NCBI RefSeq assembly: GCF_000281715.2
Contig: NZ_CP124576.1
Span: 4,442,189-4,506,188, forward strand
Length of the DNA: 64,000 bases
Origin: Sphingobium sp. AP49
GTDB lineage: Bacteria > Pseudomonadota > Alphaproteobacteria > Sphingomonadales > Sphingomonadaceae
Direction: 5' to 3'
The notes below the pieces were generated by a model. The model ran no database searches and was not told the DNA's origin. It worked only from the letters and a program-made list of their open reading frames with translations. Position 1 is the first letter of the stretch; each line of letters begins with the position of its first letter. The translations under genes and the position numbers were made by a program. Of this stretch, positions 6,358 to 26,412 are shown piece by piece.

Positions 6358-6440
6358 GATAGTCTCTCTCCCGGATGATGATTGGCGGGGAGCTTAGCGG
6401 CGGCGGTGCCGTCGCCCCAAGCGTGCCGCCAAATGATCGC

Positions 6441-7655: not shown

Positions 7656-7726
7656 CATGCATCTTTCGGTGGGCCGTCCCATCCCAAATCCTCCCCAGGG
7701 GGAAGGAACGGCCCGTCGCGCCCGGA

Positions 7727-8875
7727 TCAGGCCGGGCGGCTGGGCAGTTCGGCGATCGAGGTGCCAAAGGCCGAGATTTCGCCGCGATGGGTTTCCGCAC
7801 GCTGCTGGATCTCGACATATTTCTTGCCGTTCTCCTCGAACTTGCGGATCACGCTGCCGTCGATGAAGATCACGTCGCCATCGGGATTGTGGCGGCGGAT
7901 CTGGCACTTGCTCTTGTGCAGGAAGCCATCGTCGCCGATCCAGTTGGTGACCTGATGGGTCAGCCAGCTGCAGCGTTCCGGACCATAGTCATAGGCACCC
8001 GGCGCGCCGACTTCGAGCGCGAACGCCTCATCCCAATGGACGCGTTCCGGGCAGTCCGGCACGTTGAAGCGGTTCTTGATGCCGGTGCCGGGGTGCTTCT
8101 GCTGCATCTTCCAGGCGAGCTTGTTGGCGCGGATATAGAGGCCGCCCCAGCCCTGCGCGTAGCAGATGAAGCCGGTGACCGTCATCGGCCCCTTCATCAT
8201 GCGCGGCAGTTCGTCGCCGACCTGCACATCTTCCCAGTAACGGGGCGTGGCGCCGCGAATCTCTTCCTTCTCGTACAGCTTGTACATCTCGGCCAGCTGT
8301 TCGTCGGTGAAGGGCTCCACGCGGCCACGGGCTTCGGTGTACTTGGTGCCACGCTCGCGCGCTTCGTCGCGATCGGTGCGGAATACCCAGCTGTCGCCTT
8401 CGGCCACCTTGTCGCCCGACTGGTTGAAGAAATCGACATGGTAGATCTGCTGGAAGCTGCGGCCGGCAAACTTGGTCTGATGCTCGATCAGATCCTTCAA
8501 ATAGGCCTCGGTGCGGATCGTGTCGTTGCGCAGCACCGGCTTGTGCCAGGTCCAGTCGGCGCCGGCCCACATCGCATGGACGCCCGACAGGCCACCGCAA
8601 TAGCCCGAGATGATGCGGCTGGTGGTGAACAGGAAGCTGGGCAGCGCAACCAGCGAACCATGCTTGGTCTTCTCGGCATAGGCCGGGTCGCACCACAGCG
8701 GATTATCGTCGCCGATGCCGTGCGCATAATGGCGGATCGCGTCACGGGTGGCTTCGTAATTCCACGGTTCGACGGTATTCTCGATCTTGACGCCGATGCG
8801 CTTGCGCAGGTCGTCCAGCCCCTCCTCGGTGATCTTGGGGAATTTGTTCACGGGCGCGTCGGCCAATGTTGCCAT
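7727..8875 (-). CDS. MaoC-family (double hot-dog) acyl-CoA dehydratase/hydratase
   Basis: A 382-residue protein with two hot-dog-like halves. The N-terminal half (about 15-190) resembles the FAS1-type dehydratase domain seen in MaoC-like enzymes, with HYAHGIGDDNPLW, the typical hydratase-2-like D/H segment. The C-terminal half (about 210-370) contains the second fold (WEDVQVGDELPRMMKGPMT). The family reversibly hydrates 2-enoyl-CoA to (3R)-hydroxyacyl-CoA. A strong GGAGAAGAG ribosome site precedes the ATG. It is 17 nt downstream of the CoA ligase and in the same run as an MFE-2-like dehydrogenase, which would use an R-hydroxyacyl-CoA product. Confidence 0.85.
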   Translation of the reverse strand: MATLADAPVNKFPKITEEGLDDLRKRIGVKIENTVEPWNYEATRDAIRHYAHGIGDDNPLWCDPAYAEKTKHGSLVALPSFLFTTSRIISGYCGGLSGVHAMWAGADWTWHKPVLRNDTIRTEAYLKDLIEHQTKFAGRSFQQIYHVDFFNQSGDKVAEGDSWVFRTDRDEARERGTKYTEARGRVEPFTDEQLAEMYKLYEKEEIRGATPRYWEDVQVGDELPRMMKGPMTVTGFICYAQGWGGLYIRANKLAWKMQQKHPGTGIKNRFNVPDCPERVHWDEAFALEVGAPGAYDYGPERCSWLTHQVTNWIGDDGFLHKSKCQIRRHNPDGDVIFIDGSVIRKFEENGKKYVEIQQRAETHRGEISAFGTSIAELPSRPA

Positions 8876-8892
8876 CTCTCTTCTCCTGATAT

Positions 8893-10458
8893 TCAGTTGG
8901 CGAGTTCGACCGCCTTGGCGGCCTCACGGTCTCTCAGAATCTTGCGGTGAACCTTGCCGGCCGGCGTCTTGGGCAGGTCGGTCACGAATTCGACGATGCG
9001 CGGGAACTCATGCTGGGCCAGCTTCTCGCGGGTGAAGTCCTGCAATTCGCGGACCAGCGCATCGCTGCCGTCCCGATTGATGATAATGAAGGCCTTCACC
9101 ACCTGGCCGCGCTTGTCGTCGGGCACGCCGATCACCGCGCATTCCAGCACCGCCGCATGCTTGAGCAGCGTATTCTCGATCTCGACCGCGCTCATCGTCC
9201 AGCCTGCCGAGATGATGACGTCGTCGGCGCGGCCGCAATGGTAGAAATAGCCGTCGGCGTCGATCTTCGCCCGGTCCTTGGTCGTTTCCCACCGGTCGCG
9301 GCGCCACAGCATCAGTTCGCCAATCTCGCCGGGATCGCAGGCGCTGCCGTCGGGGCGCTGCACTTCCAGTCTCTGGCCCGGCACCGCCTTGCCCAGCGAA
9401 CCCGGCTTCACCATGAAATCCTGCGCGCCGGGATAGTTGACCAGCACCACGCCGATCTCGGTCGTGCCGTACATGGAACAGGCCGGCACCTTGAAATGGG
9501 CGTCGATGAAGTCCAGCGTCGCCGGGTCGATCGGCTCGCCGGTGTAGCTGAGCTTATCAAAATGGAAGGCGAAGTCGGCGGCCTGGCCGCTATTCTTCAT
9601 CATCCGATAATGGGTCGCGGCGGCCGACATGTTGGTGATGCCGTATGCGTCCAGCGCCTGCATCAGCCGTACAGGATCGAACCGGCCGGCAAAGGTGCCC
9701 GTCGTCACGCCCAGCCCCAGCGGCGCCAGCGTGCCATGCCACAAGCCATGGCCCCAGGCCGGCGAGGAGGGGCAGAAAAACTCGTCGCCCGGCCGGATGC
9801 CGGTGCCGTAGAGGGCGGCGAACATCAAGGTCACCAGCGCGCGATGGCTGTGCTTCACCGCCTCGGGCAGTTCGCGCGTCGTGCCCGACGTATATTGGAA
9901 GACGGCCAGGTCATTGGCCTTGGTCTTCGGGCTGTAGGTCGCCGGGAAACGGGCTAGGTCGGCCAGCAGCGCATCGTCGGCGACGATCACGCGCGGCCCA
10001 TCCATGCTGCGCGCCAGCTCCGCCTTTTCCGCATTGGTGATCAGGATGATCGGCTTGCAGTCGTCGACCCGCAACCGCAGCGCGTCCGGGCCGAACAGGG
10101 TGAAAAGCGGCACCGAGATCGCGCCGGTCTGCATCGCCCCGAACAGGCAGACATAGAAGGGCAGCGAAGGCTCCAGCATGAAGGCGATGCGTTCGCCCGG
10201 CTGAATGCCCTCGGCGTCGAGCCAATGGGCGAAGCGCGCAGCCCCCGCCGCGATCGCATCGAAGCTGAGGATCTCGTCCCGGCCATCGGCATGGGCGATG
10301 CGCACGGCGGCGCGGCCCGATCCGTCGGCATGACGGGTGACGCATTCATGGGCGATGTTCAGTTCGTCGCGATCACCGTCGAACAAATCCCACAGCGCCG
10401 CTGAGGTCGCATGTGCCTGTGCATCGGCATAGCTGCGATAGTCGGTTAGCTTCGCCAT
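8893..10458 (-). CDS. AMP-forming acyl-CoA synthetase
   Basis: A 521-residue ANL-superfamily ligase that activates a carboxylic acid to its CoA thioester via an acyl-AMP. The P-loop reads YTSGTTRELPEAVKHSH, a variant in which the usual Gly-Leu/Arg-Pro-Lys-Gly is replaced by RELPEAVK. MYGTTEIG (A5-like), the hinge YFYHCGRADD and the C-terminal PKTPAGKVHRK lysine motif are all present. Two tandem ATGs (10461, 10458) follow a GGGATGGG stretch. First gene of the minus-strand run with MaoC, CoA-transferase and SDR, and divergent from an IclR regulator. Confidence 0.88.
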   Translation of the reverse strand: MAKLTDYRSYADAQAHATSAALWDLFDGDRDELNIAHECVTRHADGSGRAAVRIAHADGRDEILSFDAIAAGAARFAHWLDAEGIQPGERIAFMLEPSLPFYVCLFGAMQTGAISVPLFTLFGPDALRLRVDDCKPIILITNAEKAELARSMDGPRVIVADDALLADLARFPATYSPKTKANDLAVFQYTSGTTRELPEAVKHSHRALVTLMFAALYGTGIRPGDEFFCPSSPAWGHGLWHGTLAPLGLGVTTGTFAGRFDPVRLMQALDAYGITNMSAAATHYRMMKNSGQAADFAFHFDKLSYTGEPIDPATLDFIDAHFKVPACSMYGTTEIGVVLVNYPGAQDFMVKPGSLGKAVPGQRLEVQRPDGSACDPGEIGELMLWRRDRWETTKDRAKIDADGYFYHCGRADDVIISAGWTMSAVEIENTLLKHAAVLECAVIGVPDDKRGQVVKAFIIINRDGSDALVRELQDFTREKLAQHEFPRIVEFVTDLPKTPAGKVHRKILRDREAAKAVELAN

Positions 10459-10515
10459 CATCCCATCCCATCGGTCCGGCATTCAACCGGGCGAACGGGT
10501 CGAAACCCCGTCGCT

Positions 10516-10585
10516 GCTTGCAACAAGCGATGTCACAGCGACTCATTTGTTGTAAATAGTGAATGATGTTCTATATTTTGAATGA
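10516..10585. promoter_or_regulatory. Candidate operator region between CoA ligase and IclR gene
   Basis: The divergent gap holds an AT-rich island unlike the GC-rich surroundings. It contains an inverted repeat GCTTG-CAA-CAAGC at 10516-10528 and a direct repeat TGAATGA at 10560-10566 and 10579-10585, with starts 19 bp apart. IclR regulators usually bind palindromes between themselves and the genes they control, so this is the natural place for the site. Which element is bound cannot be decided from sequence. Confidence 0.4.
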
Positions 10586-10616
10586 CAGACTATCGGCGTC
10601 GCGATAGGATGACGCC

Positions 10617-11450
10617 ATGACCGACAGCCGCACCACGCCCCGCCCGCCCTCCACCGTCCGCAAGGTCGCCAAGGCCGTGCAGGAGAGCAAGGCGCCCGCC
10701 ATCGCCCGCGCCGCCGCGATCCTGCGCCTGCTGGGCAAGAGCGACCGGCCGCTGGGCGTACAGGCGATCGCCAAGGAATTGGGGCTGGTGCCCAGCACCT
10801 GCCTCTATGTGCTGCGCGCGCTGGTGGAGGAGGAACTGGTCGCCTTCGACCCCGACACCAAACGCTATGCGCTGCAGGCCGGCGTGCTGACGCTGGCGCG
10901 CAACTGGCTGCGCCGCGACGCCTTCAACGACCTCGCCCAGCCGGTGCTCGACCGGTTGGCGCATCGCTTCGGCCTCACCATGCTGGGGGTGCAGGCGGTC
11001 GGCCTCGACCATATGATCGTCGTCGCCATGGCGCAGTCGGGCAGCGGCTTTCAGCTGAGCGCCCAGGTCGGCAGCCGCTTTCCCGCCCTGATCAGTGCCA
11101 CGGGCCGCTGCATCGCCGCCTTTGGCGATTATGGCGAGAAGGAACTGAAGGCGCGGTTCGACACGTTGCGCTGGGACGATCCGCCGCCCTTCGCCGACTG
11201 GATGGAGCAATTGCGCCAGACGCGCGCGCAGGGCTTCGCGGTGGACGAGGGCCAATATATTGCCGGCGTCACCGTCGTCTCCGCGCCGGTGTGGAAGGGC
11301 GCGGGCCGCCCGGTCCATGCGCTGGTCGCGATCGGCATCGGCGCCGCTCTGCAACGCGAGGGGCTGGGCGCATTGCAGCTGGCGCTGGTCGAGGCAGCGG
11401 GTGCACTCAGCCACCAGCTGAGCGGCGACCGCCCCTTACCGGCGGCGTAG
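10617..11450 (+). CDS. IclR-family transcriptional regulator
   Basis: A 277-residue regulator with an N-terminal winged helix-turn-helix (about 30-85: ILRLLGKSDRPLGVQAIAKELGLVPSTC-type pattern, written here in part) and a C-terminal effector-binding domain (about 105-265) containing the usual SATGRCIAAF and IAGVTVVSAPV-like segments. AGGATGA lies just before the ATG. It is divergent from the CoA-ligase operon and convergent with the propeller gene, overlapping that gene's 3' end by 15 nt. Members often sense aromatic or aliphatic acids and control adjacent catabolic operons. Confidence 0.88.
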   Translation: MTDSRTTPRPPSTVRKVAKAVQESKAPAIARAAAILRLLGKSDRPLGVQAIAKELGLVPSTCLYVLRALVEEELVAFDPDTKRYALQAGVLTLARNWLRRDAFNDLAQPVLDRLAHRFGLTMLGVQAVGLDHMIVVAMAQSGSGFQLSAQVGSRFPALISATGRCIAAFGDYGEKELKARFDTLRWDDPPPFADWMEQLRQTRAQGFAVDEGQYIAGVTVVSAPVWKGAGRPVHALVAIGIGAALQREGLGALQLALVEAAGALSHQLSGDRPLPAA

Positions 11451-13034
11451 CGCCAGCACGCTCCCTTCGGCGTCGCCCGACACATAGAGCGTGCCGTCCG
11501 GCCCCGCAGTCACATCGGCGAAATTGATCATCGGCCCGGCCATGTCGCCGATCGGCCCCAAAAACTTGGGCGTCACGCCGGCGGGCGCGCCGACCGGCAA
11601 AGCGCTGGCAATCGTCTCGCGCGCGCCGCCCGACAGGTCGGTGGCGACCAGTGCCTTGGCCTGCGTATCGACAACGAACAATTGCCCGCCGGTAATCGCC
11701 AGCCCTTCCGGCCGACCGAGACCGTCGATGATCGTCTCGCTGCGGCCGCTAGCGACCCGTATCACGCGCCCCGCCCCGGCCTCGGCGACATAGGCTGTTC
11801 CGTCCGGCGCCAGCGCCACGCCAATCGGCTTGTCGAGGCCGGTGGCCAGTTCGCTGACCGCGCCATTCTCGATCGAGAGCAGCCGGCCGGTGCCATATTC
11901 AGCGACGACCACCGCGCCGCCCGACGCGACCGCCACGCCCATCAACTGGTCGAGGCCGGTGGCGAGGAAATCGCTTTCCCCCTGCCCCGGCCGATAGCGC
12001 GCCACCGCGCCGAGGCCGGTGCTGATGATCCACTCCCCCGCCTGCGCCCCGGCGGCGACACCGCGCATATAACCGGGACAGCCGGGATAGAAGATCATGC
12101 CGGCCAGGGTCAGCCCCTCACCGGGCCGCAGCGTATAGCCAAAGGCGCCGTCGGCAACGAACATCGCGCCATCCGCGCCCATGGCCAGGCCCAGCGGCCA
12201 TTGCAACGCGCGCGGCACGACAGATCGCACCTTGCCATCGCCCAGCAATTCGGTGATTTCGCCGGGGATGCTCGACACGAAGATGCGGTCGCCGATGAAG
12301 CTCAGATTGTCGAGGCCAGGGCCAAGATCGGCCAGCACCTCGCGCGTGCCGCTCACCAAGTCGAGCCGCAGCACCTGCCCGCTCGCGACCTGGGTGGTGA
12401 CGATCCGCCCCTTGCTGTCAAACTTCACCGCATCGGGCACGCCCAGATCGCCGGCCACCACTTCGGGCGCGCCGCCATCCAGGTCGACCCGCCAAATCTC
12501 GTTGGCGCCCATCACCGGGAAATAGAGCTTGCCGTCCGGCCCGACCTGAAAGGCATTAGCCATCGGGACATTGTCGAGGATGACGCGGGGCGCGCCGCCA
12601 TCCAGATCCAGTTCCATGATCCGCGCGCCGATGCGGCATTCGCCCGCGATCAGCCGGCCCTGATGCCAGGTGATCGGGTTGGCGACCGGAATGTCGCCGC
12701 GCACCACCCGCACATCGCCCGATGGCGTGCGCATCGCGACACGCCCCTCGGTAATCTCGGTCAGATAGAGGTTGCCGGCATCGTCGAACACCAGATCGTC
12801 GGGCGCGACGATGGCGCCGCCCATCGCGCTGATCGTCTCGATCGCGCCGCTGTCGACATCGATCGCGCTGACCTGGCTGCCGCCGACCTGCGCCACATAG
12901 AGGCGCCCGTCCGGCCCGGTGGCCAGGCCATTGGCGCCGTGCAGGCGGCTGGGCGGGGTCAGCCGCGCGAGGGACCAGCCCTCGGCAGCGATAGCAGCAC
13001 TGGCGGCGCCATAGCGCCCGGACTGGACCGCCAT
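11436..13034 (-). CDS. NHL/SMP-30-like beta-propeller protein, possible lactonase
   Basis: A 532-residue protein built from at least ten repeats of the form P-x-G-hh-x-PDG-x-LYVA (for example GLATGPDGRLYVAQ, GVALAPDGTAYVAEA), typical of NHL, Vgb and SMP-30/gluconolactonase propellers; the number suggests two propellers. There is no clear signal peptide. The start is 1 nt after the ALDH stop, so it is the last gene of the BVMO-Rieske-ThDP-ALDH set. Since a BVMO makes esters or lactones, a lactonase role is plausible but not shown: ligand-binding or lyase roles occur in the same fold. Confidence 0.65.
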   Translation of the reverse strand: MAVQSGRYGAASAAIAAEGWSLARLTPPSRLHGANGLATGPDGRLYVAQVGGSQVSAIDVDSGAIETISAMGGAIVAPDDLVFDDAGNLYLTEITEGRVAMRTPSGDVRVVRGDIPVANPITWHQGRLIAGECRIGARIMELDLDGGAPRVILDNVPMANAFQVGPDGKLYFPVMGANEIWRVDLDGGAPEVVAGDLGVPDAVKFDSKGRIVTTQVASGQVLRLDLVSGTREVLADLGPGLDNLSFIGDRIFVSSIPGEITELLGDGKVRSVVPRALQWPLGLAMGADGAMFVADGAFGYTLRPGEGLTLAGMIFYPGCPGYMRGVAAGAQAGEWIISTGLGAVARYRPGQGESDFLATGLDQLMGVAVASGGAVVVAEYGTGRLLSIENGAVSELATGLDKPIGVALAPDGTAYVAEAGAGRVIRVASGRSETIIDGLGRPEGLAITGGQLFVVDTQAKALVATDLSGGARETIASALPVGAPAGVTPKFLGPIGDMAGPMINFADVTAGPDGTLYVSGDAEGSVLALRRR

Positions 13035-13035
13035 C

Positions 13036-14451
13036 TCAGGCGTAGCCCAGCAGCGACTTCACTTCGAGATATTCGAGGAAGCCATGCTCGCCCCATTCGC
13101 GGCCATTGCCGCTGCGCTTGTAACCGCCGAAGGGCGCATGGAAATCGAAGCCGCCATTGATGCTGATCCAACCGGTCCGCATCCGCCGGGCGACGGCACG
13201 GCATTGCTCGACATCGGTGCCGCTGACATAGCCGGCGAGGCCGAAATTGCTGGCATTGGCGATGTCGACCGCGTGGTCGATATCGTCATAGCCGATGATC
13301 ACCAGCACCGGGCCGAATATCTCCTCGCGCGCGATCACCATGTCGTTGGTGCCGACGAACACCGTCGGCTTGACGAACCAGCCCTTATCGATCCCGTCCG
13401 GGCGACCGGCGCCGCCGGCGATCAGGGTCGCGCCTTCGTCCAGGCCTTTTTGAATATAGTCCTGAATGATGTTGTACTGGCTCTTCGACACGACCGGACC
13501 CATGGCGACATTGCCGGTCGGATCGCCGACCGTCACCGCGTCCGCTGCGCCCTTGGCCGCCGCAATCACCTCGTCCATGCGCGATGCCGGCACCAGCAGG
13601 CGCGATCCCGCGCTGCAGGTCTGGCCCGAATTGCCCATCATGCCGCCGGTCGCGCCCGCGACATTGGCGGCCAGCGCATCATCGTCCAACACGATGAAGG
13701 CGCTCTTGCCGCCCAGTTCCAGCCCGACCCGCTTGATCGTCGTCGCTGCATCCTTCTGAATCTGGACGCCGACCGGCTCGGAGCCGGTGAAGGACACCAT
13801 GTCGACATCCTCATGGGTGGACAGCGCCGTGCCGATCACGCTGCCGCTGCCCTGGACCATGTTGAACACGCCGGCCGGCACGCCCGCCGTATCCAGAATC
13901 TCGGCCAGGATCTGGGCCGAGAAGGGCGCGAGTTGTGGCGGCTTCAGGATCATGGTGCAGCCGGTCGCCAGCGCCGGGAAAATCTTGACGCAGGTCTGGT
14001 TCATCGGCCAGTTCCACGGCGTGATGAGCGCGCAGACGCCGATCGGCTCGCGCGCGATCATCGTCGCGCCATGCAGCTCATCGAACTTGAAGTCGCGCAG
14101 CACCTCGATCGCGGTCTGCAGATGCCCCGCGCCCAGCCCGACATGGAAACCATGAGCGAGCGAGGATGGCGCCCCCATCTCCTCGATGATCGCGTCGCCC
14201 AGTTCGGTCTGGCGTCGCGCATATTCCGCCTGGATGGCGAGCAGCAGGTCGAGCCGCTGTTCGCGCGTGGTCTGCGACCAGCCGGCAAAGGCCTTGCGCG
14301 CGGCGGCGACCGCCTTGTTCACATCGGCGACACCGCCGAGCGAAATGGTGCCGGCCACCGCCTCGGTCGCCGGGTTGATGACATCCGCGGTCTTCGGTTC
14401 GACCGGGGCGACCCACTGGCCGTCGATATAGAAGTTCCGATAGTCGCGCAT
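13036..14451 (-). CDS. NAD(P)-dependent aldehyde dehydrogenase
   Basis: A 471-residue ALDH with TPWNWPMNQ, general base Glu245 in LELGGKS and nucleophile Cys279 in NSGQTCS. It oxidises an aldehyde to the acid. An upstream in-frame ATG (14463) is possible, but the ATG at 14451 follows GGTGAGG and gives the common N-terminus (FYIDGQWVAP). It is 74 nt downstream of the ThDP enzyme, whose product would be an aldehyde if it acts as decarboxylase or acyloin/2-hydroxyacyl-CoA lyase, and 1 nt upstream of the propeller gene. Confidence 0.88.
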   Translation of the reverse strand: MRDYRNFYIDGQWVAPVEPKTADVINPATEAVAGTISLGGVADVNKAVAAARKAFAGWSQTTREQRLDLLLAIQAEYARRQTELGDAIIEEMGAPSSLAHGFHVGLGAGHLQTAIEVLRDFKFDELHGATMIAREPIGVCALITPWNWPMNQTCVKIFPALATGCTMILKPPQLAPFSAQILAEILDTAGVPAGVFNMVQGSGSVIGTALSTHEDVDMVSFTGSEPVGVQIQKDAATTIKRVGLELGGKSAFIVLDDDALAANVAGATGGMMGNSGQTCSAGSRLLVPASRMDEVIAAAKGAADAVTVGDPTGNVAMGPVVSKSQYNIIQDYIQKGLDEGATLIAGGAGRPDGIDKGWFVKPTVFVGTNDMVIAREEIFGPVLVIIGYDDIDHAVDIANASNFGLAGYVSGTDVEQCRAVARRMRTGWISINGGFDFHAPFGGYKRSGNGREWGEHGFLEYLEVKSLLGYA

Positions 14452-14525
14452 ATCCTCACCCATGCAAAAGAGGGATTATCTTATAAAGGACCGGGCCGGC
14501 ATGATGCCGGCCCGGAGATCATTCC

Positions 14526-16310
14526 TTACTGGGTGCCTTCGGCGTACCAGGTGCGGAATTCGGCATATTTGGGCATTTCTTCCGAATTGGCCTTGGGGTC
14601 GATCACGACATGGACGACGCCCGGCTTGCCGCTGGCATAGGCACGCGCGATCGCCGGCTTGATGTCTTCCGCGCGGGTCACATATTCGCCGTGGCAGCCA
14701 AAGCCCTCGCCGATCTTGTCGAAGCGGACTTCCTTGCTCCAATGGGTGCCGGTCTCTTCCGTGCCCTGACCGAAGGTGCGCTTGTAGACGCCCACTTCCA
14801 GGCCCCACTGATTATCCACGCCGACGACGCAGACCAGAGGCAGCTTGGTGCGGACTGCCACTTCCAGTTCGGCGATATGGAACATGAAGCTGCTGTCCGA
14901 CGTCAGCAACAGGCCCGGACGGCTGACGCCCGTTGCAGCCCGATCCGCCAGCATCGCGCCGGTGGCATAGGGAATGCCGGTGCCGATATGACCGAAATTC
15001 TGGTTCCAGATGACGTCGTTCGGCTTGCACTGCGAATAGGTCCACTGGAAGATCACGCCCGCGCCGCCGTCGCGGATCAGGATGCCATCCTTGGGGAAGG
15101 CCTCGGTCGCTTCCACCGCCAGACGGGCCGGATGGATCGGCAGGTCGCCGGTGCCATCGCTCTTGGTGCGCGATTCCGCCGCCAGTTCGTCCAGTTCGGC
15201 CTGGCCGTCGCGCATGAAGGCTTCCAGACCGGGCGCGGGTGCGCGCGGCGTGTCCTTCAGCGCCTCGACCAACTGCGGCACGACGCCGCGCAGATCGCCG
15301 ACCAGCGGCACGTCGATCGGGCGGTTGACGCCGATCGCGGCGGGATCCTGCTCGACATAGATCCACTTGCGGATCGCTTCATTCTTCATCCAGTAGCGCC
15401 ACTTGCCGAAATGGACCGGCTCGCCCAATTCGGTACCCAGCGCCAGCACCAGGTCGGACTCGGTGACCGCCTCGATCGATGCCTTGGAGAAGACATATTG
15501 GAAGGTGCGGTCTTCCAGCCCCTTGATATAGCTGGTGCCGCCCGAGGTCTGGATCACCGGGCAGTTCATCAGGTCCGCCAGTTCCTTGACCGCCGCGCCC
15601 GAGCGCGAGGTGTGAACGGCATGGCCGACCAGCAGGATCGGGTTCTTGGCGGCGCGGATCAGGTCCGCCGCTTCCTTGACCCGGTCGATGTCCGCGCCCT
15701 GATTGACCAGGCGATAACGGTCCGGCGCCAGCGGCGCGGGCAGGTCCAGCTCTTCCAGAATGATGTGGCTGGGATATTCGATATAGACCGGGCCGGGGGT
15801 GCCGCCCATCGCCTTGCGAATGCCCTCGCGCACCACTTCGTCGGTCTGGTCGGCATATTCGATCGAGGCGGCATATTTGACGCTATTCTCGAACAAGGGC
15901 ATCTGCTTGACGAACTGGATGCGGCCGCGACGGACGCGCTGTTCGGTCACGCGGGCGCGCTGGCCCGACAGGAAGATGACCGGCGAATTTTCGACCAGCG
16001 CGCACTGGATGGCGGGCGCCATATTGGCGATGCCCGGCCCCAGCGTGCCGATCGCAACGGCGGGCTTGCCGGTGATGCGCGAGGCGGCCTCGGCCATGAA
16101 GCCGGCTGCGGCTTCGTGATGCGGCGCAACCACGGTCCAGCCGCGACGCTCGGCCTCCAGGAACATATGGACGAAATTGGGGTCGGGAATGCCGAACAGC
16201 GTGTTGATGCCTTCGGCCTCGAACAGGTCCAGCATCCGCTTGTAGACCGGCGTGCCCTTCTTGTCGGTGGCGTTCACATTCACGGCGGGCTTGGGATCGT
16301 CATAGCTCAT
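14526..16310 (-). CDS. Thiamine-diphosphate-dependent enzyme (decarboxylase/lyase of the acetolactate synthase superfamily)
   Basis: A 594-residue ThDP enzyme with the three usual domains. The cofactor-activating Glu is Glu66 in APHHEAAAGF. The central domain covers about 200-340. The C-terminal ThDP-binding domain has FGHIGTGIPYATG and, at about residue 470, TSDSSFMF...VDNQWG, where most relatives have GDGSF...NN. The start is ATG 16310, with GAGG 8 nt upstream, overlapping the Rieske stop as ATGA. Possible roles are 2-keto acid decarboxylase or 2-hydroxyacyl-CoA lyase; acetolactate synthase is unlikely, as no small subunit or branched-chain gene is near. Confidence 0.75.
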   Translation of the reverse strand: MSYDDPKPAVNVNATDKKGTPVYKRMLDLFEAEGINTLFGIPDPNFVHMFLEAERRGWTVVAPHHEAAAGFMAEAASRITGKPAVAIGTLGPGIANMAPAIQCALVENSPVIFLSGQRARVTEQRVRRGRIQFVKQMPLFENSVKYAASIEYADQTDEVVREGIRKAMGGTPGPVYIEYPSHIILEELDLPAPLAPDRYRLVNQGADIDRVKEAADLIRAAKNPILLVGHAVHTSRSGAAVKELADLMNCPVIQTSGGTSYIKGLEDRTFQYVFSKASIEAVTESDLVLALGTELGEPVHFGKWRYWMKNEAIRKWIYVEQDPAAIGVNRPIDVPLVGDLRGVVPQLVEALKDTPRAPAPGLEAFMRDGQAELDELAAESRTKSDGTGDLPIHPARLAVEATEAFPKDGILIRDGGAGVIFQWTYSQCKPNDVIWNQNFGHIGTGIPYATGAMLADRAATGVSRPGLLLTSDSSFMFHIAELEVAVRTKLPLVCVVGVDNQWGLEVGVYKRTFGQGTEETGTHWSKEVRFDKIGEGFGCHGEYVTRAEDIKPAIARAYASGKPGVVHVVIDPKANSEEMPKYAEFRTWYAEGTQ

Positions 16311-17683
16311 TTGAGTAACCTCGGTGCGCCCGTACCCATGTACGTGGCTAGGTTGCGGTGGAAATTGGTGATCTTGCGTTCCTGATGGGGGTTGGGCAGC
16401 GGCCCGCGGAACCCGCGCGACTTCATGCCCTTCTGCACCCATTCCATGTTGGAAAAGTCCTGGGCGAGGACAGAGCCCCAGCCCTCGGCGGTCGCCTCGG
16501 TTTCTTCCCACTCGGTGACCGGCGCCTGCCCTTCGGGAAAACGCTCGATCGCGTAGGATTCAAAGATGCACATGTCGGGATCGTCGCCATAGGGACGGGT
16601 GCGGTAGCAAAGGGCGAAGGTGATCCCCTGCAGCACCGACATGTTGGGAAAGACATGCCAGGCCAGACCCGCCTCGGCCATCACCTCGGGCGGGATTTCC
16701 GGCCAGATGACGCCCCGCGCGGCGTCGTCCGCCTTGGCGGATTTGAGCCAATGGGCGATGACGTCGCCAGCCGCCGTGCCTTCGGGCAGTTCGTCGACCA
16801 GCCGGCTGGCCGCATTGACCAAAGTCTCGGTCGAGGCCGCATAGTTCAATGTCTCGAAATTTTCGCGGATCAGCTCATAGGTGGAGCGGCGCGGATCATC
16901 GCCCTTGCCGGCCCGCGTCACGCTGCTGCTCTGGCTCATCTGGAAAGCCGGGTCGCGCTGGTCGAAGCCACTGACGCCATGCAGGCCATAGGCCGCGCTA
17001 TAGGCATAATAATCGCCATAATCGAGCAGCTGGGTATGGGTGCCCGCGACATGGTAAGGCTCCATGAACGCTTCCAGCGCGGTCTTCCAATTGGCGGGAT
17101 AAACCACCCATTTGCGCCATTTATAGCGCATCTTGTCCATCTCGAAGTGGGACAGGATACGCCCGGCATCGCCCAGGAAATCGGCCAGGGGCTCCGCATC
17201 GGGATCCATGTTGATCCAGATCCAGCCGCCCCATATGTCGATCTTGACGTCCGACAGGCGGGTGCATTCGGGCGTCAGCGCGCCCTGCCAGTCCTGCGGG
17301 TCGAGAATATATGTGTTGTTGCCCTCGGTATCGAAGGTCCAGCCATGGAAGCCGCAGACGAAGCTGCGCCGGTTCTTGCCGCGCACCGAATGGACACCCT
17401 TGGGCACATCGATCAGTTGGCGGCCCCGGTGCGGGCAGACATTGTAGAAGGCGCGCAGCGCATCGGGCGCGGTCCGCACGATGATGAAGGACTCATCGCA
17501 AATGTCATAGGTCATCCAGTCGCCGACATCGGGCAGGTCTTCGACCCGCTCGACCATCTGCCAGACATGCGGCCACAGCTTCTCCTTCTCGGCCAGGGCG
17601 TAGTCCTTCGACAGGAACGCCTCGGTCGGATAGGTCAGCGGCTTGGCCAGCGCCTCGACGTCGATGTTGCTCAATTTGCTCAT
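16307..17683 (-). CDS. Rieske non-heme iron oxygenase, large (alpha) subunit
   Basis: A 458-residue ring-hydroxylating-type oxygenase. The Rieske cluster ligands are Cys83-x-His85 and Cys110-x2-His113 (CPHRG, CGFHGW). The catalytic iron site has His211 and His216 in EPYHVAGTH, with a C-terminal Asp expected. GGAGG stands 6 nt before the chosen ATG. There is no small subunit, ferredoxin or reductase beside it, so it probably is an alpha-only (alpha3) oxygenase using electron carriers from elsewhere. It is translationally coupled to the ThDP enzyme by a 4-nt overlap, implying consecutive steps. Confidence 0.9.
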   Translation of the reverse strand: MSKLSNIDVEALAKPLTYPTEAFLSKDYALAEKEKLWPHVWQMVERVEDLPDVGDWMTYDICDESFIIVRTAPDALRAFYNVCPHRGRQLIDVPKGVHSVRGKNRRSFVCGFHGWTFDTEGNNTYILDPQDWQGALTPECTRLSDVKIDIWGGWIWINMDPDAEPLADFLGDAGRILSHFEMDKMRYKWRKWVVYPANWKTALEAFMEPYHVAGTHTQLLDYGDYYAYSAAYGLHGVSGFDQRDPAFQMSQSSSVTRAGKGDDPRRSTYELIRENFETLNYAASTETLVNAASRLVDELPEGTAAGDVIAHWLKSAKADDAARGVIWPEIPPEVMAEAGLAWHVFPNMSVLQGITFALCYRTRPYGDDPDMCIFESYAIERFPEGQAPVTEWEETEATAEGWGSVLAQDFSNMEWVQKGMKSRGFRGPLPNPHQERKITNFHRNLATYMGTGAPRLLK

Positions 17684-17850
17684 GGCATCCTCCTGCAACG
17701 CCCCCGTTGCCCGACGGGTACGGCCCGCGAGTCCACTCGCCAGGTCCGCAAGGACAATATTTTCAATCTGACTATCGCAACTGGCGGGAGCGCCCCAAGG
17801 GAAGAGCGGCCCCCACCGCGAACCATCCCCGGGGCGATCCGGCCCATGGC

Positions 17851-19680
17851 TCAGGACCGCAATTCCATGCCGTCCAGATCGCCCTTGGCACGCCAGTCCT
17901 GGACCAGTTTCTGGAACGCGCCCCAGCCCGGACCATAGCCGCGGAACAGCGCCCAGGGCGCCTTCACCTGGCCTTCATTGGTGAAGTAGCTGGGGGTGCA
18001 TTCCTGCTGGAAGGCGGTCATGTCGATCTCCATTTCCTCGAAATGGCGGACATAATCCTCCTGCCCCTGCAAGGTGGTCTCGACCACCTTGGCACCCTTA
18101 TCCATCACCGCATGAATGATATGGGCGATATGCTCCGCCTGGCGGCCGAACTGTTCGGTCACGCTGGCGTTGAGGCCACCCTGGATATAGCCGATGAAGA
18201 ACTGGTTGGGGAAACCATGGGTCATCGTGCCGTGCAGGGTGCGCGGCCCATTGGCCCAATGGTCATAGATGGATTGGCCATCGCGGCCCTCGACCGCATC
18301 GATGCCCCAGCGCCGCTTCAACTCGCTCGTCACCTCGAAGCCGCTGGCGAAAATGATGCAGTCGACCTCATATTCGACGCCGCCCGACACGAAGCCCTTC
18401 TCCGTGATCTTCTCCAGCCCCTTGCTGTCGGCAACGTCGATCAGCGTGACATTGGGCCGGTTGAAGGTCGGGTAGAACTCATTGCTCGACAGCGGGCGCT
18501 TGCAGAGGAAGCGGTACCAGGGCTTCAACGCCTCGGCCGTTGCCTTGTCCGTGACCATTTCATCGACACGGGCGCGCAGTCGCTCCATCACGCGATAATC
18601 GACCACCTCGCGCTTCGCCATGAACTGCTCGATCGACATCTCCGGCCAGCCCTCGGCTTCCAGCTCCGCCGACAGGTTGCGGGCGATCTCGGTCCAGATG
18701 TCGCAGATCAGGTCCGGTTCGCCCGGCGCGAAGGCTTCCATCGCGGCGCGGTGGAAATTGGCCTGGCGATCGGCCTGCCAGCCGGGCTGCAGCGACGCTG
18801 CCCAATCGGCATCGGTCGCCGGATTGGGGCGCTCGTCCACGGTCGATGGCGTGCGCTGGATGACATAGAGCTGCTTGGCGTAGCGGCCGAGATAGGGCAC
18901 CGCCTGGATCGCGGTCGCGCCGGTGCCGATGATCGCGACGCGCTTGTCGGCCAGCCTGTCGAGCACCGGATTGTCGTAGCTGCCGCCGCTATAGTCATAG
19001 TCCCAGCGGGCGGTGTGGAAAATCTTGCCCTTGAAGCTGTTGATGCCGGCAATGCCGGGCAGCTTGGGCATGTTGAGCACGCCGCAGCCCATCACCACGA
19101 AACGCGCCAGCAATTCGTCGCCCCGGCTGGTGCCGACGCGCCAGCGCTGGATCGCCTCGTCCCATTTCAAGGATGTGATGAGGGTATGGAACAGCGCCTT
19201 GTCGGCAAAGTTGAACTTTTCCGCGATCTGGCGGCAATAGGCCTGGATTTCCGCGCCGTCGGCGAACTTCTTCGACGGCATGAAGCCGGTCTCTTCCAGC
19301 AGCGGCAGATAGCAATAGGCGTCATTGTCGCACTGGATGCCGGGATAGCGATTCCAGTACCAGACGCCGCCAAAATCGCCGCCATGGTCGATATTGCGGA
19401 AATTGGTGACGCCCTGCTTGGTCAGATGATAGCCGGCGAGCAGGCCGGCAAAGCCCGCGCCCAGCACCACAACGTCCAGTTCCTCGACGATCGGGTCGCG
19501 CGCGACGACCGGCATGTGCGGGTCGACGTCATAGCTGTGCGTCGTATCGTCGGTCGTGGGCTGATATTGCCCTTCCCGGTCGGCGCGCATCCGCTTGTCG
19601 CGCTCGGCGCGATATTTCTCGCGCAGGGTCGGGATATCGAATGTGTCAGCCGCAGGCGTCTGCGTCGGCTTGCAGGTCAT
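17851..19680 (-). CDS. Baeyer-Villiger-type flavin monooxygenase
   Basis: A 609-residue FAD/NADPH monooxygenase that would insert oxygen next to a ketone to give an ester or lactone. FAD-binding GAGFAGL is at 74-80, the BVMO fingerprint FKGKIFHTARWDYD at 216-229 (F-x-G-x3-H-x3-W with D in place of P), and NADPH-binding GTGATA at 252-257. RYPG at 112-115 and TMTHGFPNQF near the C-terminus fit type I BVMOs such as PAMO and CHMO-like enzymes, and the roughly 60-residue N-terminal extension fits the longer subgroup. It is 167 nt upstream of the Rieske gene; the gap could hold a second promoter. Confidence 0.9.
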   Translation of the reverse strand: MTCKPTQTPAADTFDIPTLREKYRAERDKRMRADREGQYQPTTDDTTHSYDVDPHMPVVARDPIVEELDVVVLGAGFAGLLAGYHLTKQGVTNFRNIDHGGDFGGVWYWNRYPGIQCDNDAYCYLPLLEETGFMPSKKFADGAEIQAYCRQIAEKFNFADKALFHTLITSLKWDEAIQRWRVGTSRGDELLARFVVMGCGVLNMPKLPGIAGINSFKGKIFHTARWDYDYSGGSYDNPVLDRLADKRVAIIGTGATAIQAVPYLGRYAKQLYVIQRTPSTVDERPNPATDADWAASLQPGWQADRQANFHRAAMEAFAPGEPDLICDIWTEIARNLSAELEAEGWPEMSIEQFMAKREVVDYRVMERLRARVDEMVTDKATAEALKPWYRFLCKRPLSSNEFYPTFNRPNVTLIDVADSKGLEKITEKGFVSGGVEYEVDCIIFASGFEVTSELKRRWGIDAVEGRDGQSIYDHWANGPRTLHGTMTHGFPNQFFIGYIQGGLNASVTEQFGRQAEHIAHIIHAVMDKGAKVVETTLQGQEDYVRHFEEMEIDMTAFQQECTPSYFTNEGQVKAPWALFRGYGPGWGAFQKLVQDWRAKGDLDGMELRS

Positions 19681-20153: not shown

Positions 20154-20825
20154 TCAGACCCGGCCGGTGACCGGGATCAGCGCGCCGGTGATCGGCGCGG
20201 CGGCGGGCGACAGCAGGAAGGCGATCACCCCGCCCAGCGCCTCGGGCGAGACCCAGCGGCTGGAATCTGCGTCGGGCATGTCGGCGCGATTGGCCGGCGT
20301 GTCGATGATGCTGGGCAGCACCGCATTCACGCGCACGCCTTCATCCTTCAGTTCCTCGGCCAGCGCCTCGGTCAGGCGCGCGACGCCCGCCTTCGACGCC
20401 GCATAGGCGCCCATGCCGGCGGCCGCCTTCACCGATGCGGCTGCACCGATATTGACGATCGCGCCGCCGCCATCGCGCAGCAGTGGCAGCAAGGCGCGAG
20501 TCGCGATCAGCGCGGTGCGGACATTCATGCCATAGAGCCGGTCCCAGGTGGCGACCGACCCGTCGCTCACCGTTTCCCAGCTGAAGCCGCCGGCGATGTT
20601 GACCAGTGCGTCCAGTCCACCCAGCGCCTCGCCGATCTTGTCCGCCGCGCCGGCCACCGCCTGTTCGTCGGACAGATCGACTCCGCCCAGCGCCAGGTCG
20701 ACGCTGCCGGCCGGCACATCACCCAGGTCGATGCCCGCCACCGTCCAACCGGCCGCACGCAGCACCTGCACCGCCGCCCGGCCCAGCGCACCGGCCGCAC
20801 CGGTTACCGCCACCACTCCCGCCAT
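20154..20825 (-). CDS. Short-chain dehydrogenase/reductase
   Basis: A 223-residue SDR with GAAGALG cofactor motif near the N-terminus (residues 9-15), a NIAG-like motif, and YAASK as Tyr-x3-Lys. It is shorter than the usual 250 residues but has a complete-looking C-terminus (PITGALIPVTGRV). Three tandem ATGs occur; the one at 20825 is 6 nt from AAGGGG and is preferred. It lies 26 nt after the succinate-semialdehyde dehydrogenase gene in the same transcript. It should reduce or oxidise an alcohol/ketone of unknown identity. Confidence 0.8.
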   Translation of the reverse strand: MAGVVAVTGAAGALGRAAVQVLRAAGWTVAGIDLGDVPAGSVDLALGGVDLSDEQAVAGAADKIGEALGGLDALVNIAGGFSWETVSDGSVATWDRLYGMNVRTALIATRALLPLLRDGGGAIVNIGAAASVKAAAGMGAYAASKAGVARLTEALAEELKDEGVRVNAVLPSIIDTPANRADMPDADSSRWVSPEALGGVIAFLLSPAAAPITGALIPVTGRV

Positions 20826-20851
20826 CATCATCCCCTTTCGATATCCTTGCG

Positions 20852-22300
20852 TCAGATCCCGGACATGCAGAGATATTTGATCTCGACATAGTCCTCGATG
20901 CCATGGCGCGATCCTTCGCGGCCCATGCCCGATTCCTTGATACCGCCAAACGGCGCGACCTCGGTCGAAATGAGGCCGGTGTTGATGCCCACCATGCCGA
21001 CCTCCAGCGCCTCGCCCACGCGCCAGGCGCGCGCCAGGTCCCGGGTGTAGAAATAGCCCGCGAGGCCCACCTCGGTTGCATTGGCGAGCGCCACCGCCTC
21101 CTCTTCCGAGTCGAACAGGAAGATCGAAGCCAGCGGCCCGAACGTTTCCTCGTCGGCCAGCTTCATGTCCGGCGTGCAGCCACTGATGATGGTCGGCTCG
21201 AAGAAGCTGTGGCCCAGTGCATGGCGATGCCCGCCGCTCACCAGCGTGCCGCCCTTGGCCAGCGCATCGGCGACATGCTCCTCGACCTTCTCGACCGCCT
21301 TCTCGTCGATCAGCGGCCCCTGGGTCACGCCCGCCTCCGTGCCCGGCCCGACCTTCAGCTTGGCGACGGCGGCCTTCAGCTTTTCGGCAAAGGCCGGCGC
21401 AACATCGCGCTGCACCAGGATGCGGTTGACGCAGACGCAGGTCTGGCCGCTGTTGCGATATTTGGACGCGATCGCGCCTTCGACCGCCGCATCCAGATCG
21501 GCATCGGCAAAGACGATGAAGGGGGCATTGCCGCCCAGCTCCATCGACAATTTTTTCATCGTCGGCGCGCATTGCGCCATCAGCGTCTTGCCGACCTCGG
21601 TCGATCCGGTGAAGCTCAATTTGCGCACCAGCGGGTTGCCGGTCAGTTCCGCGCCGATCACCCGCGACGATCCGGTGACGACGTTGAACACGCCCTTGGG
21701 CACGCCCGCCCGTTCGGCCAGCACGGCGAGCGCCAGCGCGGTCAGCGGCGTCTGGGTCGCGGGCTTCAGCACCATGGTGCAGCCCGCCGCCAGCGCCGGC
21801 GCCGCCTTGCGCGTGATCATCGCTGCCGGAAAATTCCACGGCGTGATCGCCGCGACCACGCCGACCGGCTGCTTGATGACGACGATGCGGCTGTCGGCGC
21901 GATGGCTGGGAATGATCTCGCCATAGATGCGCTTGGCCTCTTCCCCGAACCATTCGATGAAGCTCGCCGCATAGGCGATCTCGCCCTTGGCCTCGGTCAG
22001 CGCCTTGCCCTGCTCACGAGTCAGGATCATGGCCAGATCGTCCTGATGCTCGATCAGCAGCTCGAACCAGCGGCGCAGGATGCGCGATCGCTCGCCCGCG
22101 GTCTTCGCCTTCCAGGCCGGCAGCGCCGCCTCGGCTGCCTCGATCGCCGCGCGCGTGCCCGCCTCGTCGATCGCGGGAATGCCGGCCAGCCGCTCGTCCG
22201 TCGCCGGGTCGGTCACGTCGATGCTGGCGGTGCCGATCCACTGGCCGTCGACATAGCATTGTTCGCGCAGCAGGCTGGGGTCGGCAAGGGCTATGGTCAT
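20852..22300 (-). CDS. gabD: NAD(P)-dependent succinate-semialdehyde dehydrogenase family protein
   Basis: A 482-residue aldehyde dehydrogenase of typical GabD length. It has TPWNFPAAMITRK, SFTGSTEVGK, general base Glu254 in MELGGNAPF, and nucleophile Cys288 in NSGQTCVC, a Cys-x-Cys arrangement common in GabD. It would oxidise succinate semialdehyde, or glutarate semialdehyde or a related C4-C5 semialdehyde, to the diacid. AAGGTGA precedes the ATG. Followed by an SDR gene 26 nt later. In a catabolic region it may handle a C4 ring fragment rather than GABA. Confidence 0.8.
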   Translation of the reverse strand: MTIALADPSLLREQCYVDGQWIGTASIDVTDPATDERLAGIPAIDEAGTRAAIEAAEAALPAWKAKTAGERSRILRRWFELLIEHQDDLAMILTREQGKALTEAKGEIAYAASFIEWFGEEAKRIYGEIIPSHRADSRIVVIKQPVGVVAAITPWNFPAAMITRKAAPALAAGCTMVLKPATQTPLTALALAVLAERAGVPKGVFNVVTGSSRVIGAELTGNPLVRKLSFTGSTEVGKTLMAQCAPTMKKLSMELGGNAPFIVFADADLDAAVEGAIASKYRNSGQTCVCVNRILVQRDVAPAFAEKLKAAVAKLKVGPGTEAGVTQGPLIDEKAVEKVEEHVADALAKGGTLVSGGHRHALGHSFFEPTIISGCTPDMKLADEETFGPLASIFLFDSEEEAVALANATEVGLAGYFYTRDLARAWRVGEALEVGMVGINTGLISTEVAPFGGIKESGMGREGSRHGIEDYVEIKYLCMSGI

Positions 22301-22353
22301 CGGATCACCTTCTTCGGCAGGATGCGGGGCTACAGGCGCAGGGCGCGCCCGCC

Positions 22354-22370
22354 GCTGCGTCCAACGCAGC
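22354..22370. promoter_or_regulatory. Perfect inverted repeat upstream of gabD
   Basis: GCTGCGT-CCA-ACGCAGC has perfect 7-nt arms and a 3-nt centre, 54-70 nt upstream of the gabD start within a 163-nt gap. The place suits an operator, although a weak terminator of the upstream SnoaL gene cannot be excluded. No cognate regulator can be named. Confidence 0.4.
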
Positions 22371-22463
22371 ATGGCCCCATTTCGATGCGAAGGTGGGATG
22401 CGGGGCAGGCGGCGTCAACGTGGACGAAATGTCCCCGACCAAGGATCGACCCCGCGATGCGCC

Positions 22464-23012
22464 CTAATCCGGGATGCGCGGTTCCCGGCGGTTGACCAAT
22501 GGCCTCAGATAGGAGGGATCGCTGGCGTCCCGCGCGGGGGCGCCATTGGCATTCAGGTCCGGCACATCGCCAAAGGGCAAGGGCAGGGTCGGCACCAGCC
22601 CGGACCATTCGATCATGTTGGTGCGCAGCGCGATCTTCCACTGCCCGCCCCGCCGTTCCAGCCGGTCGATATAGCGGCCACCGGCGATCCAGTTGCTCTC
22701 GTCCCGGTTGCGGCCGACGAACAGATAATAGGTTTCGGCATGGGCGCTGTCGCCGTCGATATCGATCGTCATGTTGAGCAGATTATGATGCGTCGCCACC
22801 TGTCCGCCTTCATGCAGGGCAGAGGCCCACGCATAGAGCGCATCGGGCGCGCCGACGAAGCTGCCCGCCGCGACGGTGGCATCGTCATGAAAGGCGGACA
22901 GGAACAGGGCGCGGTCGAACCGGTCCATGCCCCGGCTGAACCGGGTCAGGCAGTCGACAATGTCCTGCCGGTCGAGCAGCGCATCCATCCGCGCCTGGCG
23001 ATCCGCGTCCAT
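22464..23012 (-). CDS. SnoaL-like protein, possible dehydratase/isomerase (1)
   Basis: A 182-residue NTF2-fold protein. An acidic residue in the first helix region (RFDRALF, Asp33) and a THH pair (His75-His76) sit where LinA and scytalone-dehydratase relatives carry the catalytic Asp-His dyad, and GGRYIDRLERRGGQWKIALR is a characteristic C-terminal strand pair. Bile-acid 7-dehydratases also belong to this fold. GGAGG lies 6 nt before the ATG, which is only 1 nt beyond the upstream SDR stop, so the two are translated together. Confidence 0.75.
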   Translation of the reverse strand: MDADRQARMDALLDRQDIVDCLTRFSRGMDRFDRALFLSAFHDDATVAAGSFVGAPDALYAWASALHEGGQVATHHNLLNMTIDIDGDSAHAETYYLFVGRNRDESNWIAGGRYIDRLERRGGQWKIALRTNMIEWSGLVPTLPLPFGDVPDLNANGAPARDASDPSYLRPLVNRREPRIPD

Positions 23013-23013
23013 C

Positions 23014-23892
23014 CTATGCCTCCGTCCGCGGGGCGATCGGCTGCCAGATCGGCGCGCCACGCTCGGCCCGCAGCGACGGGATGGTCTTCCCGTCGACATC
23101 GGTGATGCCATAATCCTGCGCCAGCTCCGCCGTGATGAAGGTGCCGCCCGATCGCGCCATGATCGCCGGATCGGCCAGCAGCGCGGCGATCACCCGGCCG
23201 GGAAATTCGGGCGAGCAGCCGACCAGCGGATTGGTCACGGTCAGCGCCTTCATCGCCGGATTGGCGGCGATGTTGCGCTGTGCCCGCTCGGTCATGGTCA
23301 GCCCCTGCCACAGCGAGAGCGAGGCGACGCCATGGGGCTGCAATTCGATCGCCATGTCCCGCGCCATCCGGTCGACCGCCGACTTGCACGTGCCGAACAC
23401 CACGCCATAGGTATAGGTGACCCCGACATAGCCCGATATCGCGACGATCAGGCCCGATCCCTGCGGCACCATCATCTGGGCGGCATGGCGCGCAGCGACG
23501 AAGTTGGATCGCACGCCGACATCGACCATGTCCCAGTTGGACAGCGGCTTTTCCCAGAAGCTGCCCGGCACGGTCAGATCCTCGGGGATGGCAAAGGCGT
23601 TGTTGACCAGCAGGTCGAGCCGCCCCTGTTCGCGCTGCACCTGGTCGAACAAAGCGGCGACCTGCGCATCGTCGCCATGATCGACCTGCACGGCAATGCC
23701 CCGGCCGCCGCGCGCATCGCATTGCGCCGCCGTCTCGCCGACCGTGCCGGGCAATTCATGATCGCCCGCATTGACCGTGCGCCCGGTGACATAGACGGTC
23801 GCGCCCTGCTCGGCGAGCGCCAGCGCCATCCCCTTGCCGATCCCCCGGCTTGCGCCGGTCACGATCGCGACCTTGCCGTCCAGCGGTTTCAT
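23014..23892 (-). CDS. SDR-family protein with Phe at the catalytic Tyr position
   Basis: A 292-residue SDR resembling the DHRS1 group: cofactor motif GASRGIG at 13-19, NNAF at 97-100, Ser153, and Lys170. The residue four before the Lys is Phe166 (FGTCK), where SDRs have Tyr; Tyr160 and Tyr162 are near. Either a neighbouring Tyr substitutes or the protein is not a normal dehydrogenase. It lies between two SnoaL-fold genes, 11 nt after one stop and 1 nt before the next start, so the three form one unit. Confidence 0.8.
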   Translation of the reverse strand: MKPLDGKVAIVTGASRGIGKGMALALAEQGATVYVTGRTVNAGDHELPGTVGETAAQCDARGGRGIAVQVDHGDDAQVAALFDQVQREQGRLDLLVNNAFAIPEDLTVPGSFWEKPLSNWDMVDVGVRSNFVAARHAAQMMVPQGSGLIVAISGYVGVTYTYGVVFGTCKSAVDRMARDMAIELQPHGVASLSLWQGLTMTERAQRNIAANPAMKALTVTNPLVGCSPEFPGRVIAALLADPAIMARSGGTFITAELAQDYGITDVDGKTIPSLRAERGAPIWQPIAPRTEA

Positions 23893-23903
23893 GATCCTCT
23901 CCC

Positions 23904-25218: not shown

Positions 25219-25274
25219 CAAGAAATCCGAACAGGCGCAACCTACTCATGAGTATAGGAGAGACGCAAGCGTTT

Positions 25275-26399: not shown

Positions 26400-26412
26400 A
26401 AGGAGAATTTGG

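Follow-up and report, generated by a model that had tools for sequence, protein, structure and literature searches.

We analysed the final 64 kb of the 4.5-Mb single-contig genome of Sphingobium sp. AP49 (contig NZ_CP124576.1, positions 4,442,189 to 4,506,188), a stretch of 64,000 nucleotides (nt) referred to below as the window. Our subject is a set of five genes on its minus strand, encoding a Baeyer–Villiger monooxygenase (BVMO), a Rieske oxygenase, a thiamine diphosphate (ThDP)-dependent enzyme, an aldehyde dehydrogenase (ALDH) and a beta-propeller protein. The five genes are a real module and likely serve one linked oxidative pathway with a C–C-cleaving ThDP step. All five are open frames at the place given in the original prediction, made from the sequence without database searches, and each has a family match:

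17851-19680, minus strand: type I BVMO (Pfam FMO-like, E 5e-9)
16307-17683, minus strand: Rieske non-heme iron oxygenase alpha subunit (Pfam Rieske and Ring_hydroxyl_A, in a longer frame)
14526-16310, minus strand: ThDP-dependent enzyme, proposed C–C lyase (three TPP-enzyme Pfam domains)
14491-14515, minus strand: hairpin between the ThDP and ALDH genes, possible terminator or processing site (10 of the stem pairs G–C)
13036-14463, minus strand: ALDH superfamily protein (Pfam Aldedh, E 3.7e-147, 491 bits, cut-off 23)
11436-13034, minus strand: large beta-propeller, SMP-30/Vgb/ScyE-like, candidate lactone-opening enzyme (Pfam Vgb_lyase, NHL and SGL)

Direct reading of the DNA confirmed that the Rieske and ThDP genes overlap in an ATGA at 16307-16310 and that the gap between the ALDH and propeller genes is exactly 1 nt, and this spacing suggests that each of the two pairs is a tight unit. 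The BVMO and Rieske genes are separated by a 167-nt gap, and between the ThDP and ALDH genes lies an 11-pair hairpin (14515-14491) with a T-containing tail, TCCTTTATAA, behind it. The hairpin could be a terminator; the region holds six terminator-like sites against 5.5 expected by shuffling, which makes it statistically weak, and inspection of related sphingomonad loci by eye showed other inverted repeats at this position. Of the five-gene operon that had been predicted, the linked module stands, and a single transcript is not proven given the 167-nt gap and the hairpin.

Searching genome contigs with the ThDP protein returned 249 relatives, of which the best 80 were taken together with up to 10 kb of flanking DNA in either direction. 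All neighbour counts refer to these 80 loci and are anchored on the ThDP gene itself, by which the loci were found. A neighbouring gene was called at identity of at least 45% over at least 40% of the length. Because 21 of the loci are shorter than 21 kb, the presence counts are lower bounds, and many loci come from bins (metagenome-assembled genomes), in which contamination is possible. Full flanks were available for 59 loci; 36 of the 80 are actinobacterial, 35 of these with full flanks.

Around the ThDP gene, the BVMO was found in 64 of the 80 loci, the Rieske oxygenase in 62, the ALDH in 64, a short-chain dehydrogenase/reductase (SDR) in 51 and the propeller in 43. The module ranges from Proteobacteria to Actinobacteria, including sphingomonads, mycobacteria and Nocardia, and occurs on both chromosomes and plasmids. 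BVMO and Rieske genes were present together in 53 of the 59 full-flank loci, and each of the BVMO, Rieske, ALDH and SDR genes in 35/35 full-flank actinobacterial loci, where the propeller was found in 19/35. The actinobacterial gene order differs, and some of these loci have genes for a CoA-transferase and acyl-CoA dehydrogenases (ACADs) interposed. Wherever a Rieske gene was present (62/62), it was the same-strand neighbour of the BVMO gene, and the ALDH gene followed the ThDP gene directly in 63 of the 64 loci with an ALDH. In all 16 loci in which the Rieske and ThDP matches abut (0-3 nt), ATGA stands at the ThDP start, and in 11/11 same-genus genomes that have the genes both matches include one common coordinate, as expected from the overlap. 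The recurrence of the set in distant genomes indicates that the arrangement is more than chance, and this gene-neighbourhood search bore out the conservation of the Rieske–ThDP pair outside Sphingobium sp. AP49.

Co-occurrence was also examined at the genome level. With E-value thresholds of 0 for the ThDP enzyme, 1e-180 for the BVMO and 1e-170 for the Rieske oxygenase, the same 11 of 61 relatives (own genome included) hold all three genes; two further genomes have a ThDP match of only 39-40% and neither partner. These same-gene thresholds were chosen by us, the Rieske value after a paralogue at 2e-156 had appeared in the own genome. All three genes are likewise held by the same 3 of 147 Sphingomonadales genomes (own genome included), and a looser Rieske threshold of 1e-120 recovered the same three. 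In the other two, the module parts are separated. One (G153) carries the BVMO–Rieske pair amid unrelated genes, e.g. secD and accC, and 1.5 Mb away a ThDP–ALDH–IclR–ligase–MaoC–CoA-transferase–SDR cluster with the propeller; in the other (G181), the BVMO gene stands with the propeller and an SDR, and the best Rieske (69-71%) and ThDP genes lie on two other contigs. Co-occurrence without linkage points to one pathway rather than hitch-hiking, though the genomes are few.

Of the 50 NCBIfam models matched by the ThDP enzyme, 25 were listed, and it passed the cut-off of none of these. The best acetolactate synthase (ALS) model gave 245.7 (cut-off 509), the 2-hydroxyacyl-CoA lyase (HACL) model 168.6 (cut-off 600), and two oxalyl-CoA decarboxylase (OXC) models 172.2 and 197.2 (cut-offs 739.4 and 557). 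ALS, OXC, HACL, BbmA and benzaldehyde lyase (BAL) are all among its relatives in PDB, at similar distance. The original prediction had depended on the protein being an active lyase and not an ALS; it is not assigned to ALS, as it passes none of the ALS models listed, and the key catalytic residues are kept. After one of 81 sequences was dropped, Glu66, Thr89, Gln132 and Glu505 were invariant in 80/80. Positions were compared with those of HACL through HMMER alignments, mapped by eye; PMC8760513 and PMC11271303 name the residues that HACL uses for catalysis and the arginines that bind CoA and ADP, the acyl-CoA-binding arginines being R260 and R400 of ApbHACL/S. Glu505 lies within a WGLE motif that aligns with WNIE of AcHACL, whose catalytic acid/base is Glu493; comparison of the wild-type and E493Q rows identifies the AcHACL column, and the ALS alignments give the same column. 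Neither CoA-arginine position holds an arginine in any of the 80 sequences (Ser/Ala/Thr278 and Trp423). At the ADP-arginine positions, residue 171 is Thr in 75, Arg in four and Lys in one, and residue 294 is Glu in all 80. As judged from these alignments, the family keeps the acid/base Glu for cleavage next to a carbinol without the known grip on CoA. A paralogue of the ThDP enzyme with 58% identity is encoded elsewhere in the own genome (L002, G000:C1:1821139-1822848).

The two oxygenases keep their active-site signatures, as counted in 65 BVMO and 51 Rieske family members, none of which was dropped. Type I BVMOs are marked by the fingerprint FxGxxxHxxx(W/F); the window protein carries it as FKGKIFHTARW at residue 216, with the G, H and W conserved in 65/65 members and the F in 49/65. 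Its best PDB match is 5mq6 (387 bits), which we take to be PockeMO, followed by phenylacetone monooxygenase (257-260 bits), and its NCBIfam score for the pentalenolactone enzyme PtlE is 629 bits (cut-off 1100). In the Rieske oxygenase, E204, E208, H211 and H216 are invariant (51/51), and C83, H85, C110 and H113 (CxH, CxxH) together with the iron ligands H211 and H216 are invariant in 19 aligned sequences; one alignment step involved a length filter that dropped 10 of 51 Rieske and three of 43 propeller sequences. The bridging position next to the iron His is usually, though not universally, Asp in Rieske oxygenases; here it is Glu208 in 51/51, and CntA also has a bridging Glu. The best PDB match, carnitine monooxygenase, scored 96 bits over residues 17-221 only. 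No Rieske beta subunit was found among the window proteins scanned, which lie within the first 31.4 kb. A paralogous sphingomonad cluster (L109, 7978-15196) holds three Rieske genes, a TauD-type dioxygenase gene and a BVMO gene, the BVMO again beside a Rieske gene.

The ALDH passed the cut-off of none of the 25 NCBIfam models listed of 42, and its start is probably the internal ATG at 14451, behind GTGAGG. In the plasmid copy of Sphingobium RAC03 (L105, 21935-23380), the ALDH match is split in two, and the gene table shows neither an ALDH nor a propeller gene, which may reflect a pseudogene or just an incomplete table. The propeller has an SGL domain of the SMP-30/gluconolactonase family (52.1 bits, Pfam cut-off 26.3) and passes the NCBIfam ScyD/ScyE model (117.2, cut-off 80). 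Its structural model is of high confidence (predicted local distance difference test [pLDDT] 92.8), with designed and NHL propellers as best neighbours. N35, D79, D80, N119, N160, D201, D242 and N243 are invariant in 18 aligned sequences, and most invariant Asn/Asp residues fall in the first half. A role as a candidate lactonase is plausible.

The near-invariant doublets BVMO–Rieske and ThDP–ALDH suggest that the module has two halves, one for oxygenation and one for cleavage. We propose, with a probability of about 0.4, that its substrate is a bulky cyclic ketone, probably isoprenoid or steroid-like, which is oxidised and has its carbon skeleton cut. SDRs would produce the ketone, and oxygen insertion by the BVMO would turn it into an ester or lactone, which the propeller may open. 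The Rieske oxygenase would add a hydroxyl beside a carbonyl, and the ThDP enzyme would then split the carbonyl–carbinol C–C bond of the α-hydroxy ketone, a retro-acyloin cleavage without a CoA handle as in BAL, with Glu505 in place of the acid/base Glu493 of AcHACL. The ALDH would oxidise the resulting aldehyde, and an acyl-CoA ligase or CoA-transferase, ACADs and a MaoC hydratase would pass the acid into beta-oxidation. Hydroxylation by the carbonyl, retro-acyloin cleavage and aldehyde oxidation would be the most economical chemistry, with the BVMO, and possibly the propeller, opening another bond of that skeleton. The gene families, the conserved active-site residues, the linkage, the co-occurrence and the missing CoA arginines are read from sequence; the substrate class, the order of the steps, the acyloin chemistry and the lactonase role are what we infer. 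A bulky cyclic substrate is suggested by the paired ACAD frames in four mycobacterial loci and by the type of BVMO. At a Paraburkholderia sprentiae locus (L108, 11947-18159), one independent example, a distant Rieske relative (43-44%) adjoins a ketosteroid-delta-1-dehydrogenase gene (924 bits, cut-off 789) and another kind of ThDP system, E1/lipoyl/E2.

The ThDP enzyme might instead be a 2-oxo acid decarboxylase, oxidation giving a 2-oxo acid that is split into CO2 and an aldehyde, which the ALDH turns into an acid one carbon shorter. The ALDH gene directly behind the ThDP gene fits such removal of an aldehyde, and Glu505 is compatible with the catalytic Glu of the pyruvate-decarboxylase type (E473). 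Pyruvate decarboxylases, however, carry an HH motif and no HH pair occurs in ThDP residues 118-140, no cut-off was reached among the NCBIfam models listed, and a Rieske enzyme alone would make no 2-oxo acid, so that an extra dehydrogenase step would be needed; we regard this alternative as unlikely. Hydrolysis of a ring 1,2-dione, formed by the Rieske oxygenase and an SDR and opened to an oxo acid that the ALDH converts to a diacid, seems less probable still. It agrees with the SDR and ALDH genes in the cluster and with cyclohexane-1,2-dione hydrolase being a PDB relative (122.9 bits), but that enzyme ranks below ALS, OXC, HACL and BAL. An α-oxidation in which a 2-hydroxyacyl-CoA lyase releases formyl-CoA, a branch of the original prediction, is disfavoured and has the smallest probability of these alternatives. 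The alignment of Glu505 with Glu493, the high rank of OXC and HACL in the PDB comparison, the nearby acyl-CoA ligase gene and the below-cut-off matches of the CoA-transferase to formyl- and oxalate-CoA-transferases speak for it; against it are the absence of both CoA-binding arginines from all 80 sequences, the Glu294 and predominant Thr171 at the ADP positions, the low HACL score and the ligase relative being found in just 18 of the 80 loci.

A different kind of explanation is that the linkage stems from shared mobile catabolic segments whose genes serve different substrates. The module was probably spread horizontally, with bin contamination as a caveat. Plasmid copies occur in two Sphingobium, in Mycobacterium branderi and in Rhodococcus. 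The ThDP enzyme is 99% identical to that of Sphingobium scionense DSM 19371, where the locus (L020) is arranged alike, and those of Haliea, Halioglobus and Gammaproteobacteria-labelled bins are closer to it (87%) than that of Novosphingobium piscinae (78%). The corresponding values for bins and N. piscinae are 69-71% and 66% for the Rieske oxygenase and 59-63% and 63% for the BVMO, so the excess identity is not common to all genes. Nevertheless, the genes still co-occur when 1.5 Mb apart (G153) or on different contigs (G181), and the pairs are kept in different order across phyla, which makes unrelated functions improbable.

Several observations weigh against the retro-acyloin route proposed here. 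The Rieske and ThDP enzymes had been predicted to catalyse consecutive steps; the linked genes very likely belong to one pathway, and the transfer of the Rieske product straight to the ThDP enzyme is conjectural, since only 25 of the 62 loci, all outside the Actinobacteria, have the Rieske gene directly before the ThDP gene (≤400 nt). Three of the 59 full-flank loci (L030, L036 and L037) have no BVMO, Rieske, ALDH or propeller gene beside the ThDP gene, no other module gene occurs within 44 kb around the 58% paralogue, and G181, outside the 80 loci, is an exception to BVMO–Rieske adjacency. The active site is not fully shared with AcHACL, whose His44 corresponds to Asn45 here (by eye), and Glu505 by itself leaves room for a 2-oxo acid. 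The AlphaFold model of the ThDP enzyme is of middling quality (pLDDT 74.0), and the benzaldehyde lyases that top its fold ranking do so within a tie. No Rieske reductase was found among the window proteins scanned. Finally, in the ThDP system of the P. sprentiae locus the lipoyl domain has a small gene of its own; the E1 and E2 score as pyruvate-dehydrogenase-like (E1 beta above the NF006667 cut-off) and are not a proven acyloin complex.

Among known systems, BAL (2ag1/3iae/8y8m) shares the fold of the ThDP enzyme, with 20-23% identity in structural alignments, and is likened to it by fold and not by active-site residues. BAL, an acyloin lyase, acts on a non-CoA hydroxyketone, and we know of no comparable gene module for it. 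The BVMO shares the type I fingerprint with 5mq6 and the neopentalenolactone D synthase PtlE type, its best PDB and NCBIfam matches, but falls well short of the PtlE cut-off and stands in a catabolic, not a biosynthetic, context. The Rieske oxygenase resembles the carnitine/glycine-betaine monooxygenases CntA and GbcA, including the bridging Glu of CntA; unlike them, it adjoins a BVMO, its match covers only part of the protein and its GbcA score is 96 bits (cut-off 670). Bile-salt degradation in Chol11 likewise involves sphingomonads, bulky cyclic substrates and Rieske enzymes; a ThDP relative from a bin labelled Chol11 (L042) has no BVMO or Rieske gene in its flanks. According to the accessible parts of PMC7176365 and PMC8760513, the lyase-hcl-mpdBC cluster of Actinomycetospora chiangmaiensis likewise combines a ThDP lyase carrying the catalytic Glu (in WNIE, as against WGLE in the window enzyme) with an aldehyde dehydrogenase and acid activation. 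By contrast, the module described here lacks the CoA arginines, adds BVMO, Rieske and propeller genes and scores far below the HACL cut-off. Neither 'Baeyer' nor 'thiamine' occurs in the accessible parts of PMC8399759 and PMC12175502, and among the titles and abstract openings listed in searches of open-access papers we found none that describes the gene set or assigns a substrate to the cluster.

The module is thus widespread, yet its ThDP enzyme lies under every curated cut-off among the models listed. That it represents a new ThDP lyase family, coupled to a BVMO–Rieske pair and performing an oxygen-assisted, CoA-independent retro-acyloin cleavage of polycyclic isoprenoid ketones, is a tentative and still doubtful proposal. 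If true, soil and water bacteria would have a third way of opening the skeleton, beside 9,10-seco cleavage and beta-oxidation. The acyloin reading would also add a C–C cleavage chemistry to those by which bacteria degrade bulky cyclic natural products, and would offer a lyase/carboligase scaffold independent of CoA.

The catabolic block reaches past the five genes, to 5440-11450 behind the propeller and to 20154-24443 upstream, the latter also including a SnoaL-like protein:

10617-11450, plus strand: IclR-family regulator, divergent (Pfam; 17/80 loci, 0/36 actinobacterial)
8893-10482, minus strand: acyl-CoA ligase (Pfam AMP-binding)
7727-8875, minus strand: MaoC/FAS1_DH-type hydratase (Pfam; 17/80 loci)
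6441-7622, minus strand: CoA-transferase family III (Pfam CoA_transf_3, in a longer frame; best NCBIfam 322 bits, cut-off 750)
5440-6357, minus strand: SDR closely related to one of the actinobacterial module (Pfam; relative in 51/80 loci, 35/36 actinobacterial)
20154-20834, minus strand: SDR, FabG-like, start assumed (Pfam adh_short, residues 380-558 of the longer frame 20154-21953)
20852-22372, minus strand: second ALDH, succinate-semialdehyde-dehydrogenase-like (NCBIfam TIGR01780, 719, cut-off 646)
23014-23892, minus strand: SDR of the wider cluster (Pfam; relative in 10/80 loci)

A second relative of the SDR at 5440-6357 is encoded at 57526-58434 of the window. At 77-5023, sulfate-activation genes for a 3′-phosphoadenosine 5′-phosphosulfate reductase, a GTPase–adenosine 5′-phosphosulfate kinase fusion and an inositol-phosphatase-like protein run into a plus-strand sulfotransferase gene, relatives of which (a family of eight, annotated in L105) are found close to the module elsewhere among the loci. 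On the plus strand at 25215-31337, a beta-oxidation-like cluster adjoining a TetR gene encodes an acyl-CoA dehydrogenase, two thiolases, an SDR, an enoyl-CoA hydratase and a nitronate-monooxygenase/FabK-like protein.

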